Shown here: positions 20,914 to 25,580 of the stretch, in pieces
Position numbering within the stretch: position 1 is the first letter of the stretch
How the letters are laid out: every line of letters begins with the position of its first letter
Source: Desulfitobacterium dichloroeliminans LMG P-21439
GTDB lineage: Bacteria; Bacillota; Desulfitobacteriia; Desulfitobacteriales; Desulfitobacteriaceae
Length of the DNA: 64,000 nucleotides
Reading direction: 5' to 3'
NCBI RefSeq assembly: GCF_000243135.2
Contig: NC_019903.1
Coordinates: forward strand, 1,526,001 to 1,590,000
Position numbers and translations under genes: made by a program
Notes under the pieces: model-generated
Told to the model about the DNA's origin: nothing
Seen by the model: only the letters and a program-made list of their open reading frames with translations
Databases searched by the model: none

Positions 20914-20932
20914 AGACTAGAATACGACTAGG

Positions 20933-20969
20933 AATCCCTTAGAACCAAGGTTCTGAGGGATTTTTTTTT
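20933..20969 (+). terminator. Terminator after pirin
   Basis: AATCCCTTAGAACC (20933-20946) pairs with GGTTCTGAGGGATT (20949-20962), followed by a run of T. Confidence 0.85.
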
Positions 20970-20977
20970 AATACATC

Positions 20978-21006
20978 TTGACGTTGTATTTAGTTAGCAG
21001 TATATT
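20978..21006 (+). promoter_or_regulatory. Promoter of the ferredoxin/HesB selenoprotein operon
   Basis: TTGACG (20978-20983) and TATATT (21001-21006) are 17 bases apart, directly after the pirin terminator and 93 bases before the ferredoxin start. Confidence 0.7.
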
Positions 21007-21098: not shown

Positions 21099-21302
21099 AT
21101 GTCGGCGTATATCTTAGAAAAGCTATGCCTTGGCTGTCAACGCTGTGTTCGCGCCTGTCCACAAGACGCAATTCAAATGGTCGCGCATATGGCAAATGTC
21201 AATCCTGAACAATGTATAGAATGTGAGGAATGTGTGGAAGTATGTATGCAGGGGGCAATCACTTTCCGAGAGGATGAGAGAAGAGATATTGGCTATGGAT
21301 GA
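21099..21302 (+). CDS. Small dicluster [4Fe-4S] ferredoxin
   Basis: A 67-residue protein with CLGCQRCVRACP (from ~residue 10) and CIECEECVEVC (from ~41), giving eight cysteines for two [4Fe-4S] clusters. The fourth cysteine of the second motif is followed by Met instead of the usual Pro. AGAGGAGG lies before the ATG. It is the first gene of an operon, overlapping the coiled-coil miniprotein by 8 bases and 180 bases before the HesB selenoprotein. It may donate electrons to, or receive a cluster from, the HesB-like protein. Confidence 0.87.
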   Translation: MSAYILEKLCLGCQRCVRACPQDAIQMVAHMANVNPEQCIECEECVEVCMQGAITFREDERRDIGYG

Positions 21303-21465
21303 TAATCAGCGAAGAATGCATGAGCATAACCTCCTGAGGCTACAGAAGGAGTTAGACGATCTTCGCTCCCGTTGGCCGGCTCATTCTGTCAAACCCGAAA
21401 TGGTCAATCAACGAGAAGAATTAGAAGAAGAAATAGCGGACCTGAGGAAGCGATTGAAAGAATAA
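21295..21465 (+). CDS. Small coiled-coil protein, 56 residues
   Basis: The ATG at 21295 overlaps the ferredoxin stop (ATGGATGA), a common coupling arrangement. The protein is almost entirely charged helix: NLLRLQKELDDLRSRW, then REELEEEIADLRKRLKE with leucine heptads, so probably a dimeric coiled coil. The longer frame from 21223 lies within the ferredoxin gene and is unlikely. No family is recognised. It may be an adaptor between the ferredoxin and the HesB selenoprotein. Confidence 0.65.
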   Translation: MDDNQRRMHEHNLLRLQKELDDLRSRWPAHSVKPEMVNQREELEEEIADLRKRLKE

Positions 21466-21483
21466 TAAAACGAAGAGGTGAAA

Positions 21484-21786
21484 ATGATGATAAAAGTAAC
21501 TGAAAGAGCAGCAGAGATGCTTGAAAGTTTGATGACAGGACAAGACGACTTGGGAATGAAGTACCTGAGGATTTCCATGGGTGGCTATGGCTGAGGCGGC
21601 CCCAATTTTAAATTAGCTCTGGATGAGCTAAAGAATGAAAACGATATCATGGTTGAATCCCAAGGAATTAGGGTTGTTTATACGTCCACATTTGAAGAAT
21701 ATCTATCTGATTCGGTTATCGATTACGTGGACGACTTCTTCGGCCGAGGCTTTTATGTTAGAGGGTCGGGACAATCCTCTTGTTAG
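21484..21786 (+). CDS. HesB/IscA-like selenoprotein (in-frame TGA read as selenocysteine)
   Basis: One frame runs from ATG 21484 (or the adjacent ATG 21487) to TAG 21784 with a single internal TGA at 21592-21594. Read as selenocysteine (U), the 100-residue product contains RISMGGYGUGGPNFKLALDE and ends in YVRGSGQSSC. U stands where HesB/IscA-family proteins have the first cysteine of the G-C-G-G motif; the fold before it (KVTERAAEMLESL) and the C-terminal cysteine also fit. Coding character is unbroken across the TGA. A SECIS-like hairpin follows at 21613. The protein may handle iron-sulfur clusters or sulfur/selenium redox. Normal gene calling splits it. AAGAGG lies before the ATG. It is the third gene of the ferredoxin operon. 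Confidence 0.85.
21613..21631 (+). promoter_or_regulatory. Bacterial SECIS-like hairpin
   Basis: TTAGCTC (21613-21619) pairs perfectly with GAGCTAA (21625-21631) around the loop TGGAT. The loop begins 25 bases after the TGA and has G at its second position, matching the published bacterial SECIS pattern (short stem, small loop with an early G, about 16-37 nt from the UGA). Confidence 0.75.
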
Positions 21787-21845
21787 TGAGGATGGCTTAG
21801 TTTACAATTACCGCTAAATTGTGAATAACTTAAATGTTTTATGTA

Positions 21846-21880
21846 ATAAAAACCCTTATTTACGAGGGTTTTTATTTTTT
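21846..21880 (+). terminator. Terminator of the selenoprotein operon
   Basis: AAAAACCCT (21848-21856) pairs with AGGGTTTTT (21865-21873), followed by ATTTTTTT. Confidence 0.8.
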
Positions 21881-22046: not shown

Positions 22047-22472
22047 ATGAAAAAGCTTGTACTTATTGTCGCGATTCTTTCTTTAAGTTTTGGTTTGCTG
22101 TTACTTACAAAGCACCCAGCTTTAGGCCTGGATGGACCGGTCTTCTGTGGCAGTTGCCATGTCATGGAAGAACAAGTTGAAACCTATTTGCATTCAGCTC
22201 ATCGCCTAGGAACGAAGTGTGGCGATTGCCACGTGCCTCACAGCTTGGTTCCCGGAGCGATAAACAAGGCCTACACAGGGACGAAGGACTTTATTGGGGT
22301 GCTTAGGGATAAAGATCCCTACACAATTGAGGTAAGTCCACTTGGTCAAGACATTATTCAAGAAAATTGTTTACGGTGTCACGGTGATCTTCTTCATATG
22401 GTAGGCGATACCAAAAGGGATGGAGGAAGGTTCTGTTTTGACTGTCATCGCGATACTCCCCATCTAAATTAA
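22047..22472 (+). CDS. nrfH: Cytochrome c nitrite reductase small subunit NrfH
   Basis: A 141-residue tetrahaem cytochrome of the NapC/NirT type. One N-terminal membrane anchor (LVLIVAILSLSFGLLLL) is followed by four CxxCH sites: CGSCH, CGDCH, CLRCH, CFDCH. It takes electrons from menaquinol and passes them to NrfA on the outer face of the membrane. ATG 22047 is chosen because it opens the membrane anchor; the GTG at 22026 overlaps the GGAGGG region. It lies 15 bases upstream of nrfA, which has its own AAGGAGG. Confidence 0.93.
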   Translation: MKKLVLIVAILSLSFGLLLLTKHPALGLDGPVFCGSCHVMEEQVETYLHSAHRLGTKCGDCHVPHSLVPGAINKAYTGTKDFIGVLRDKDPYTIEVSPLGQDIIQENCLRCHGDLLHMVGDTKRDGGRFCFDCHRDTPHLN

Positions 22473-22487
22473 AAGGAGGTAAAAGGT

Positions 22488-23753
22488 ATGGAAAAGAGAT
22501 CTTTATCCGGAAAGGCTTTAGGGGTGATCATTTTTTTGATCGTGGTTTTGGTAGGGAGCATTGCCACCGTCATCTATATCTTTGACTCTAATAACCAAAA
22601 GCTGAAGACGGAGCAAGTAGGCCAAATTGCCGCAGATGAAGTAGATCCTGCCGTGTGGGGTCAATATTATCCTGTGCACTATCAGACCTATCTGCAAAAT
22701 GGTGAAAATACGGATATGCCTTCTCATTTTGAGACTAAACCCTATATGAAGCTTTTATATGCAGGCTTAGGTTACTCCAACGAATTCAATGAACCAAGGG
22801 GTCATGTCTACACCCTAGAGGATATTCGGGCGGTTGATTCCTCCAGATATAAAGTCGGAGCCTCCTGTAATACCTGTAAATCAACCCAAATACCAGGACT
22901 CATTGAAAAGTATGGGGCAGATTATTATACATCTTCTTTTGAAGAGATCAATTCACAGCTAGAATATCCTATCGGCTGCTTGGATTGTCATAACCCCGAA
23001 ACTATGGAACTCAGGATTTCCCGTCCCGCATTGATCGAGGCCTTTGAAAGGCAAGGAAAGGACATCACCCAAGCAACGAGACAAGAAATGAGGTCGTTAG
23101 TGTGTGCTCAGTGCCACGTTACCTATTATTTTGAGCCTGACACCAAAAAAGTGATGTTCCCCTGGGACAAGGGAGTAAAAGCTGATCAGATCCTCGACTA
23201 TTATGATGAAAAGAAATTTAGCGAATGGAAACATCCTGATGCTGATACAGGATTGGTAAAAGCCAGACATGCTGAGTATGAAGTTTTTCAGGGAAGTACC
23301 CATGAATCGGCCGGGCTTGCTTGCGCAGATTGTCATATGCCTTATATGAAGATGGGCAACACCAAGGTCAGCTCACACTATTGGACAAGTCCTTTGAAAA
23401 ATATTGAAGAAAGCTGCGGCGTCTGTCATCGCGAAGGTGCTGAGTGGTTAGAGAGTCGGGTCGATGATATCCAAGCTAAGACCAAGGAAATTCAGGATAT
23501 TGCCGGCGAAACCATGGTGCAAGCGGTCGAAGAGATTGCCCTTGCTCGCCAGACACCGGGTGTCAACGCGGATTTGCTTGCCCAGGCCCAGCAAATGCAC
23601 CGTGATGGTCAGTGGTATCTGGATTATGTCATGGTAACGAACGGCTATGGCTTCCATAATCCGATGGAGTCCATGAATAATCTCGGCAAAGCGATTGATT
23701 TTGCCCATCAAGCTATTCAGTTAGCGAAGGATGCGGCAATTAAATCCCAATAA
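22488..23753 (+). CDS. nrfA: Ammonia-forming cytochrome c nitrite reductase NrfA
   Basis: A 421-residue pentahaem enzyme reducing nitrite to ammonium outside the cell. An N-terminal hydrophobic segment (residues ~9-31) serves as signal or anchor. The active-site haem motif CNTCK (C127-K131) has the diagnostic lysine ligand; CLDCH, CAQCH, CADCH and CGVCH supply the other four haems. KARH before the fourth haem matches the KxRH motif used to recognise NrfA. Length is slightly shorter than E. coli NrfA. Maturation would need haem lyase genes not seen here, and thiol reduction, for which CcdA and a TlpA-like protein occur at 58-59.5 kb. Confidence 0.94.
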   Translation: MEKRSLSGKALGVIIFLIVVLVGSIATVIYIFDSNNQKLKTEQVGQIAADEVDPAVWGQYYPVHYQTYLQNGENTDMPSHFETKPYMKLLYAGLGYSNEFNEPRGHVYTLEDIRAVDSSRYKVGASCNTCKSTQIPGLIEKYGADYYTSSFEEINSQLEYPIGCLDCHNPETMELRISRPALIEAFERQGKDITQATRQEMRSLVCAQCHVTYYFEPDTKKVMFPWDKGVKADQILDYYDEKKFSEWKHPDADTGLVKARHAEYEVFQGSTHESAGLACADCHMPYMKMGNTKVSSHYWTSPLKNIEESCGVCHREGAEWLESRVDDIQAKTKEIQDIAGETMVQAVEEIALARQTPGVNADLLAQAQQMHRDGQWYLDYVMVTNGYGFHNPMESMNNLGKAIDFAHQAIQLAKDAAIKSQ

Positions 23754-23807
23754 TTACAGACAAGAATCACTAGGTGTTGAGGAGTCTAAAAGAGGAGGGA
23801 AAGTCTG

Positions 23808-25580
23808 ATGAAACGTTGGATTTGTAAGGTTTGTGGCTACATTCATACTGGGAATGAACCCCCTGAGCGTTGCCCCCAATGTGGTGCACCGAAAGAAGAG
23901 TTTAGACTTCTTGAAGAAAATGAAAGTGCTGTCGATCAAATTCAATCGGACCAACCTGCGGAGTTTAGGCAAGAAGTTGATGTTTTGGTTGTAGGTTCTG
24001 GTGCAGCTGCCTTCTCTGCCGCCATTACGGCTAAAAATGAGGGGTGCTCGGTTATCATGCTGGAAAAAGCCAGTGAGATTGGGGGCACAACCAGACGATC
24101 TGGTGGTGGGTTCTGGATACCGAACAATCGCTTTCAACGTAAGCATGGAATCATCGACAATCGGGAGGAAGCCCTCAAGTACATGGTTCGCTATTCTTAC
24201 CCCCATCTGTATCAGCCAGAGGCAGAGCGCTACGGTGCTCCCCAGAACGAATTTGCCCTAATCGAGGCCATGGTGGATCATGGGGCTGAGATGACTGAAT
24301 ATCTCGAGAATATCGAAGCCTTTAAGCTGATTGAGCAGATTAACTGGACGGGAAAGCTCCAGGTGGATTACCAGGATCACCTGCCGGAAAATCGTTCGAT
24401 TCGTGGTCGGGTATTATTTACCCAAGATGAAAAGGGAGAATTAACTTATGGTTATGCCCTGATCAATAGTTTCAAAGCCTGGGCTGAGAAAAATGATATA
24501 CCTATCCTTGTGGATCATCGGGTCACGAAAATCCTCCGGGACGAATCGGGACGGGCCATCGGCCTTGAAGCTAGGAACAAGGGGAAATTGGTTAGCTTTT
24601 CAGCAAAAAAAGGCATTATATTTGGTTCCGGCGGTTACTCGCATAATCCAGAGTTGATGTTGCATTTTCAGCGGGGTCCAATCTTCGGAGGCTGTTCTGC
24701 ACCTACCAATACGGGTGACTTTGTTCGCCTGGGCGGAGCAATTGGTGCTAAGCTAGGTAATATGAGTGGAGCTTTTCGTGCCCAAAGTGTGTTTGAAAGT
24801 GTCTTGGAGAACCCTGATGGCTCGAATAATTTGTTCTTTATCCCCGGTGACGGTGTGATAGAAGTCAACCGCTATGGTAAGCGGGTCATGGATGAGAAGA
24901 GGAACTATACGGATCGTGGAATGGTGCATTTCGTCTGGGATCCCAATCGTGCCGAGTGGACGAACATGCTACTTTTCATGGTTTTCGACCAACGAACAGC
25001 TGAGCTTTGGCAGGGTGATCCTCCGTATCCGATGGCAGGCAGCATACCACCTTACATGATTACCAGTAACACCCTTAAGGAATTGGGTATAGCTATTTCA
25101 GCAAGATTAGAAAAATTGCGGAATAAGACCGGCGGCTTTGCCTTAGATGAACATTTCAACGAGACCTTTGCGGAAACGGTCCAGACCTTCAATGGTTATG
25201 CTAGGACCGGAGTCGATTCCGATTTCCGTCGCGGTGACTTTGCTTATGACAGAGAATGGACAACTTACCCGCCCACTCAACCCGGCGGCGTCCAGTGGCC
25301 GACAGACATGAGTAAGAATTACACCATGGCGCCCCTGAGTGAAGAGGGTCCTTATTATGCGATTATCCTAGCTTCGAGCACCCTGGACACCAATGGTGGC
25401 CCGATGATTAATCAGCACTCTCAGGTCTTGGATTATGAAGGCAAGGTAATTCCCGGCTTGTATGGAGCGGGCAACTGTATTGCCTCTCCGACAGGGAATG
25501 CTTATTGGGGCGGTGGCAGTACAATCGGACCAGCCTTGACCTTCGGTTATATTGCCGGACTTCAAGTGGCAAAATCGTAG
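23808..25580 (+). CDS. Rubredoxin-domain/FAD flavoprotein fusion (fumarate reductase/KstD-like)
   Basis: A 590-residue fusion. Residues 1-35 form a rubredoxin-like iron site (CKVCGY at 6-11 and CPQCG at 22-26). From ~57 the FAD motif VLVVGSGAAAFSAAI begins a FAD_binding_2 flavoprotein with SGGGFWIPNN and, near the end, GNCIASPTGNAYWGGGSTIG. The C-terminal region resembles 3-ketosteroid dehydrogenases and fumarate reductase flavoproteins more than the AprA-like copies at 2-8.5 kb. No signal peptide is present, so it is cytoplasmic. The rubredoxin domain probably feeds electrons directly to FAD. It follows nrfA by 54 bases, with its own GGAGGG, and may be co-transcribed. Confidence 0.87.
   Translation: MKRWICKVCGYIHTGNEPPERCPQCGAPKEEFRLLEENESAVDQIQSDQPAEFRQEVDVLVVGSGAAAFSAAITAKNEGCSVIMLEKASEIGGTTRRSGGGFWIPNNRFQRKHGIIDNREEALKYMVRYSYPHLYQPEAERYGAPQNEFALIEAMVDHGAEMTEYLENIEAFKLIEQINWTGKLQVDYQDHLPENRSIRGRVLFTQDEKGELTYGYALINSFKAWAEKNDIPILVDHRVTKILRDESGRAIGLEARNKGKLVSFSAKKGIIFGSGGYSHNPELMLHFQRGPIFGGCSAPTNTGDFVRLGGAIGAKLGNMSGAFRAQSVFESVLENPDGSNNLFFIPGDGVIEVNRYGKRVMDEKRNYTDRGMVHFVWDPNRAEWTNMLLFMVFDQRTAELWQGDPPYPMAGSIPPYMITSNTLKELGIAISARLEKLRNKTGGFALDEHFNETFAETVQTFNGYARTGVDSDFRRGDFAYDREWTTYPPTQPGGVQWPTDMSKNYTMAPLSEEGPYYAIILASSTLDTNGGPMINQHSQVLDYEGKVIPGLYGAGNCIASPTGNAYWGGGSTIGPALTFGYIAGLQVAKS

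Follow-up and report, generated by a model that had tools for sequence, protein, structure and literature searches.

The window, by which we mean the whole stretch of 64,000 nucleotides analysed here (Desulfitobacterium dichloroeliminans LMG P-21439, NC_019903.1, positions 1,526,001 to 1,590,000), contains a short hesB-like gene with an in-frame TGA. The overlap and spacing of the genes and the terminators that flank them suggest that hesB is the last of a three-gene unit, preceded by a ferredoxin gene and the gene for a miniprotein. The features of this region are as follows, in positions of the window:

20930..20965, + strand: terminator-like hairpin that follows the pirin gene and marks the 5′ border of the unit
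20978..21006, + strand: promoter-like TTGACG-17-TATATT before the three-gene unit (consensus match only)
21099..21302, + strand: small ferredoxin, 67 aa, two 4Fe-4S motifs (PF12838, PF00037), forming a conserved pair with the miniprotein
21295..21465, + strand: 56-aa helical-hairpin miniprotein, motif WPAHSxKP, 8 nt overlap with the ferredoxin
21475..21480, + strand: ribosome-binding-site-like GAGGTG (direct sequence reading)
21484..21786, + strand: predicted hesB-like selenoprotein gene, most likely beginning at 21487, with the Sec codon TGA at 21592-21594 and the stop TAG at 21784-21786 (PF01521, TGA-bearing homologues)
21592..21594, + strand: in-frame TGA, predicted selenocysteine (Sec37) at the site of the first IscA/HesB Cys (TGA or a Cys codon in homologues)
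21613..21631, + strand: SECIS-type hairpin, 7 bp, loop TGGAT (subfamily conservation, covariation, synonymous constraint)
21845..21876, + strand: terminator-like hairpin after hesB, before nrfHA-like genes

The hesB frame runs from ATG 21484 or ATG 21487 to the TAG at 21784-21786 and encodes 100 residues from 21484. A first-pass annotation of this DNA had described a single frame over 21484-21786 in which TGA 21592 is the sole interruption, and reading the frame bears this out. Because GAGGTG at 21475-21480 lies 6 nt upstream of ATG 21487, and because the HesB homologues begin at the Met that corresponds to it, ATG 21487 is the likelier start. Behind the terminator that follows hesB is a separate unit (22053-25580), which encodes NrfH- and NrfA-like cytochromes (with CxxCK), followed by a rubredoxin-like protein and an FAD-binding, fumarate-reductase-like protein.

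Predicted selenocysteine decoding and the post-TGA hairpin

The genome of the window is a single contig of 3.62 Mb in which selA, the gene for tRNA-Sec and selB stand side by side, with selD elsewhere (382 bits). The tRNA-Sec scores 71 bits and is called tRNA-SeC with anticodon TCA by ARAGORN, the selB ORF adjoining selA was identified by sequence (L050), and a formate dehydrogenase of the same genome has a TGA in frame at the position of its Sec. The full Sec machinery is thus present, where the first-pass annotation had called for a check of selA, selB, selC and selD and would have given up its reading had there been no sel genes. Just 3′ of selB (L050, 5301-6707) lies an ORF that by eye is of the group II intron-type reverse transcriptase/maturase kind.

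Homologues were found in 49 of 61 genomes searched (the window's own and 60 relatives), many with one TGA replacing the Cys of the others. A profile made from the closest seven homologues, blind to Sec or Cys, was then applied to the class (83 genomes) and to 398 genomes sampled evenly from the phylum, and returned 10 loci above 120 bits, each with exactly one TGA. Scanning with a DNA pattern in which the TGA was fixed and synonymous positions were free, which picks Sec forms by design, gave at least 118 further stretches from Bacillota, Thermodesulfobacteriota, Spirochaetota and others, while a genome scan with the U-to-C protein gave no match, partly as its motif pattern required a Cys codon. 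The collected set comprises 154 distinct proteins, 134 with Sec and 20 with Cys, the Sec count being inflated by the TGA-specific scan and the sampling motif having admitted only TGA or Cys. In a tree of all rows, and again in one of 72 rows built with more care, the window protein falls among 24 all-Sec proteins, most of which end in a single terminal Cys; support for this clade is moderate (78/81), and is strong (95/81) for a 22-row set that includes the window protein and is restricted to subfamily members. L018/G037 and L039 are placed outside the 24-member subfamily.

These homologues bear directly on the alternative that translation truly ends at the TGA, or that the TGA arose by nonsense mutation, leaving a pseudogene or a 36-residue peptide. 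Standard gene finding does stop there, and no ORF of at least 50 aa is listed across the TGA, but the ten loci found without bias share the TGA and have conserved protein beyond it. Identity between the window protein and L003 is also no lower after the TGA (54%, hairpin codons excluded) than before it (40%); the L116/L149 pair was left out of this comparison for an indel. Together with the complete set of sel genes and the conserved, covarying hairpin described below, this makes a true stop very improbable, and we consider it refuted by the comparison with homologues. The search for homologues with TGA or Cys at this position that are conserved past it, proposed at first pass, therefore succeeded, and the homologues do not all end at the TGA.

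The hairpin downstream of the TGA has the sequence TTAGCTC-TGGAT-GAGCTAA, with arms at 21613-21619 and 21625-21631 and the loop at 21620-21624, so that the TGA is separated from the stem by 18 nt and from the loop by 25 nt. These coordinates agree with the 7-bp hairpin first noted, with its loop TGGAT and with a stem and loop starting 19 and 25 bases past the TGA. A bacterial SECIS element is expected to be a hairpin 3′ of the TGA whose small apical loop includes a G (PMC1088965), and the hesB hairpin has each of these properties. Comparable hairpins follow just 13 of the 2486 TGAs within the window (0.5%, the chance level), so the joint occurrence of the hairpin and the domain match described below is far beyond chance. 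An Rfam scan of the hesB region gave no match at a meaningful score, and the folding energy of the single sequence is unremarkable (z -0.41); the case for a SECIS element accordingly rests on comparison.

That comparison concerns both codon choice and pairing. The codons of the loop and inner stem are without synonymous variation in the 24 subfamily members, where the Ala or Thr codon is always xCT, Leu is CTG in 24/24 (19% elsewhere in these genes) and Glu is GAG in 24/24 (background 29%), and the 11 members that came from Sec/Cys-blind genome searches show the same codon picture over the hairpin. The stem pairs of the subfamily covary, with 8 compensatory cells in which both sides have changed; the covariation score is 0.211, compared with 0.122 on average for shuffles, with none of 500 shuffles as high, in a control that ignores relatedness, and slid registers pair at 16-51% as opposed to 98% for the true register. 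Conservation across 24 members, covariation and synonymous constraint all argue for the bacterial-type SECIS element proposed at first pass. The Cys homologues are looser over the hairpin, having CTG in 13/20, GAG in 10/20 and the TCTGGA core in 12/20.

Near-cognate read-through, or another residue at the TGA, would leave hairpin conservation as a by-product of the LxLDE peptide, and the hairpin does overlap a conserved peptide that is also found in the Cys homologues. We regard this as hardly credible, since synonymous positions do not vary in the Sec forms but are less constrained in the Cys forms, the stem pairs covary, and TGT/TGC is the sole alternative to TGA in the sampled set, albeit one whose motif admitted nothing else. 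The TCTGGA cores kept by Cys homologues, L015 and L016 among them, are apparently relics of a Sec-to-Cys change; in Desulfitobacterium hafniense, such relics have been reported from the Cys form (PMC1794560).

Judged from sequence, TGA 21592 is almost certainly decoded as Sec in a member of the HesB-like family, and nothing contradicting Sec decoding was found in the sequence evidence gathered. SelB with Sec-tRNA, together with the hairpin 18 nt past the codon, would help the ribosome insert Sec at this TGA.

An IscA-fold protein in a divergent all-Sec subfamily

The two halves of the protein match PF01521 (Fe-S_biosyn) independently and in collinear order, the half before the TGA covering profile positions 1-26 (E 0.087, weak alone) and the half after it positions 44-95 (E 6e-4). 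The joined protein reaches E 3e-10 and 40.7 bits, above the gathering cut-off of 26.3. One HesB-like protein therefore appears to span the TGA, as was first suggested, and Sec37 aligns with the first Cys of IscA, the place where U had been expected. An AlphaFold model of the protein (pLDDT 82, with a poor tail below 50 at residues 98-100) is similar to IscA and SufA along its length, matching 1s98 (VIA Z 13.3, rmsd 2.4, 97 aligned) and 1r94 (Foldseek E 1.9e-7). At the C terminus, a single Cys100 as the last residue replaces the usual CxC. Going by sequence and model, the product would be an IscA-fold protein of 99-100 residues that ends in Cys100 and carries Sec37 where A-type proteins have their first cluster- or iron-binding Cys.

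The HesB-like selenoproteins already form a recognised family (PMC1794560, PMC1242214), whose motif is UxGP (PMC13188914). A 2016 bacterial survey counted 90 of them in 86 organisms (PMC5029168), making them the sixth most numerous in that survey (PMC5029168; PMC13188914), so that of the phrase "known rare family" used at first pass, "known" stands and "rare" does not. The window protein carries both the UxGP motif and the HesB/IscA domain by which the literature defines the family; the gene is an additional member of it and is not new in kind.

It nevertheless falls below the thresholds of the corresponding models. With TIGR01911 (HesB_rel_seleno) it shares the IscA/HesB fold, Sec at the first Cys, UGGP and a bacterial-type hairpin after the TGA, but scores 35.5 bits against a cut-off of 66.35; clear relatives also score below it. 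The fold and the Sec/Cys position are likewise shared with NF038090 (IscA_HesB_Se), whose cut-off of 85 bits is reached neither by the window protein (44.6) nor by the other HesB selenoproteins tested. The IscA/SufA/ErpA proteins of TIGR00049 have the same fold (1s98, 1r94, 2d2a) and the same first-Cys position, although the window protein has Sec for Cys and scores 55.3 bits against 58.8. A-type carriers have three Cys, one followed by a C-terminal CxC, whereas the window protein has Sec37 and Cys100 alone. Only one other protein of the genome exceeds the PF01521 cut-off, the Cys-type paralogue G000:C1:2269836, which is of the same fold family and 37% identical to the window protein but has Cys at the Sec position and a Cys-rich tail. 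On sequence comparison, the window protein is a member of a divergent all-Sec HesB subfamily that lies below the NCBIfam cut-offs.

Gene neighbourhoods and possible function

The miniprotein has no Pfam or NCBIfam match, and gave one match in each of 35 of the 61 genomes. The ferredoxin gene is directly upstream of it in 20 of 20 checked loci, encoding proteins 56-100% identical to that of the window; the miniprotein motif across L079-L097 is WPAHSxKP or a close variant, and in G003 (L081) ferredoxin and miniprotein are fused in one open frame. The constant pairing and this fusion make the ferredoxin-miniprotein pair a conserved module of its own. A model of the fused protein is of low confidence (pLDDT 66) and supports only two helices for the miniprotein part.

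The first-pass annotation had grouped hesB with these two genes, which holds in the window, but the pair is independent and widely conserved. The two same-genus relatives that have hesB lack the attachment seen in the window's genome, and no pair was present in the stretches fetched around hesB of the closest relatives, where the trio was sought. A HesB selenoprotein stands immediately before the miniprotein in G037 and G039, with no ferredoxin in the fetched stretch; the HesB selenoprotein of G037 belongs to another branch. L038 (7708-8160) and L221 (minus strand, 667 to about 240) have a SAM-methyltransferase-like gene, a HesB selenoprotein and then directly the miniprotein, and a similar methyltransferase adjoins HesB in L033 and L184. 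The closest HesB relatives have other, widely varying gene neighbours.

Of the 12 named subfamily loci, 5 are beside selA/selB; for the other HesB selenoproteins, 4 of 98 loci are near selA, selB or selD (Fisher p 6e-4, ignoring relatedness). The five are L110, L115, L116, L149 and L200, four of them directly after selB; L116 also has a YedE-like transporter and a cysteine-desulfurase-like gene near HesB (families named by eye). The open-access papers searched seem to describe neither the subfamily, nor its position beside sel operons, nor the module of ferredoxin and miniprotein, which is weak evidence that these are new.

A plausible though tentative proposal is that Sec37 and Cys100 form a redox-dependent binding site for iron, an Fe-S cluster or a chalcogenide, and that the ferredoxin made alongside is the partner for electrons or clusters. 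The missing CxC, the poorly modelled tail and the varying neighbours are points against such a function, as is the unimpaired nitrogen fixation of a HesB-like mutant of Methanococcus maripaludis (PMC11097638). The lost CxC tail would also fit a thiol/selenol redox protein that handles peroxide, persulfide or metalloids and has given up cluster assembly, as would the methyltransferase-like gene beside wider-family loci (G009, G037, C. ljungdahlii) and, by eye, the rhodanese-like or CoA-disulfide-reductase-like genes that adjoin the pair elsewhere. This is possible but less likely, as the protein has no UxxC or CxxU motif and has the IscA fold, not that of thioredoxin.

Service in selenium metabolism, as a carrier, sensor or quality-control factor and not in Fe-S assembly, would account for the contrast in sel-gene neighbourhoods and for the neighbours in L116. 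We think it unlikely: hesB is far from the sel genes in the window's genome, the fetched hesB neighbourhoods of same-genus relatives hold none, co-location may reflect co-regulation alone, and a Sec protein cannot be an absolute requirement for making Sec. More speculative again is the combined picture of a distinct, always-Sec subfamily tied to selenium metabolism through clostridial sel operons, with the ferredoxin and WPAHSxKP pair as a redox module.

Redox-dependent binding of iron, a cluster or a chalcogenide by Sec37 and Cys100 thus stands as our working proposal. Whatever the function, a hesB gene model that ordinary stop-codon annotation would cut short is corrected here, and a divergent all-Sec branch that lies under current NCBIfam thresholds is added to a large selenoprotein family. 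The ferredoxin-miniprotein pair and the recurring sel-operon neighbourhood provide concrete leads to the function of HesB-like selenoproteins.
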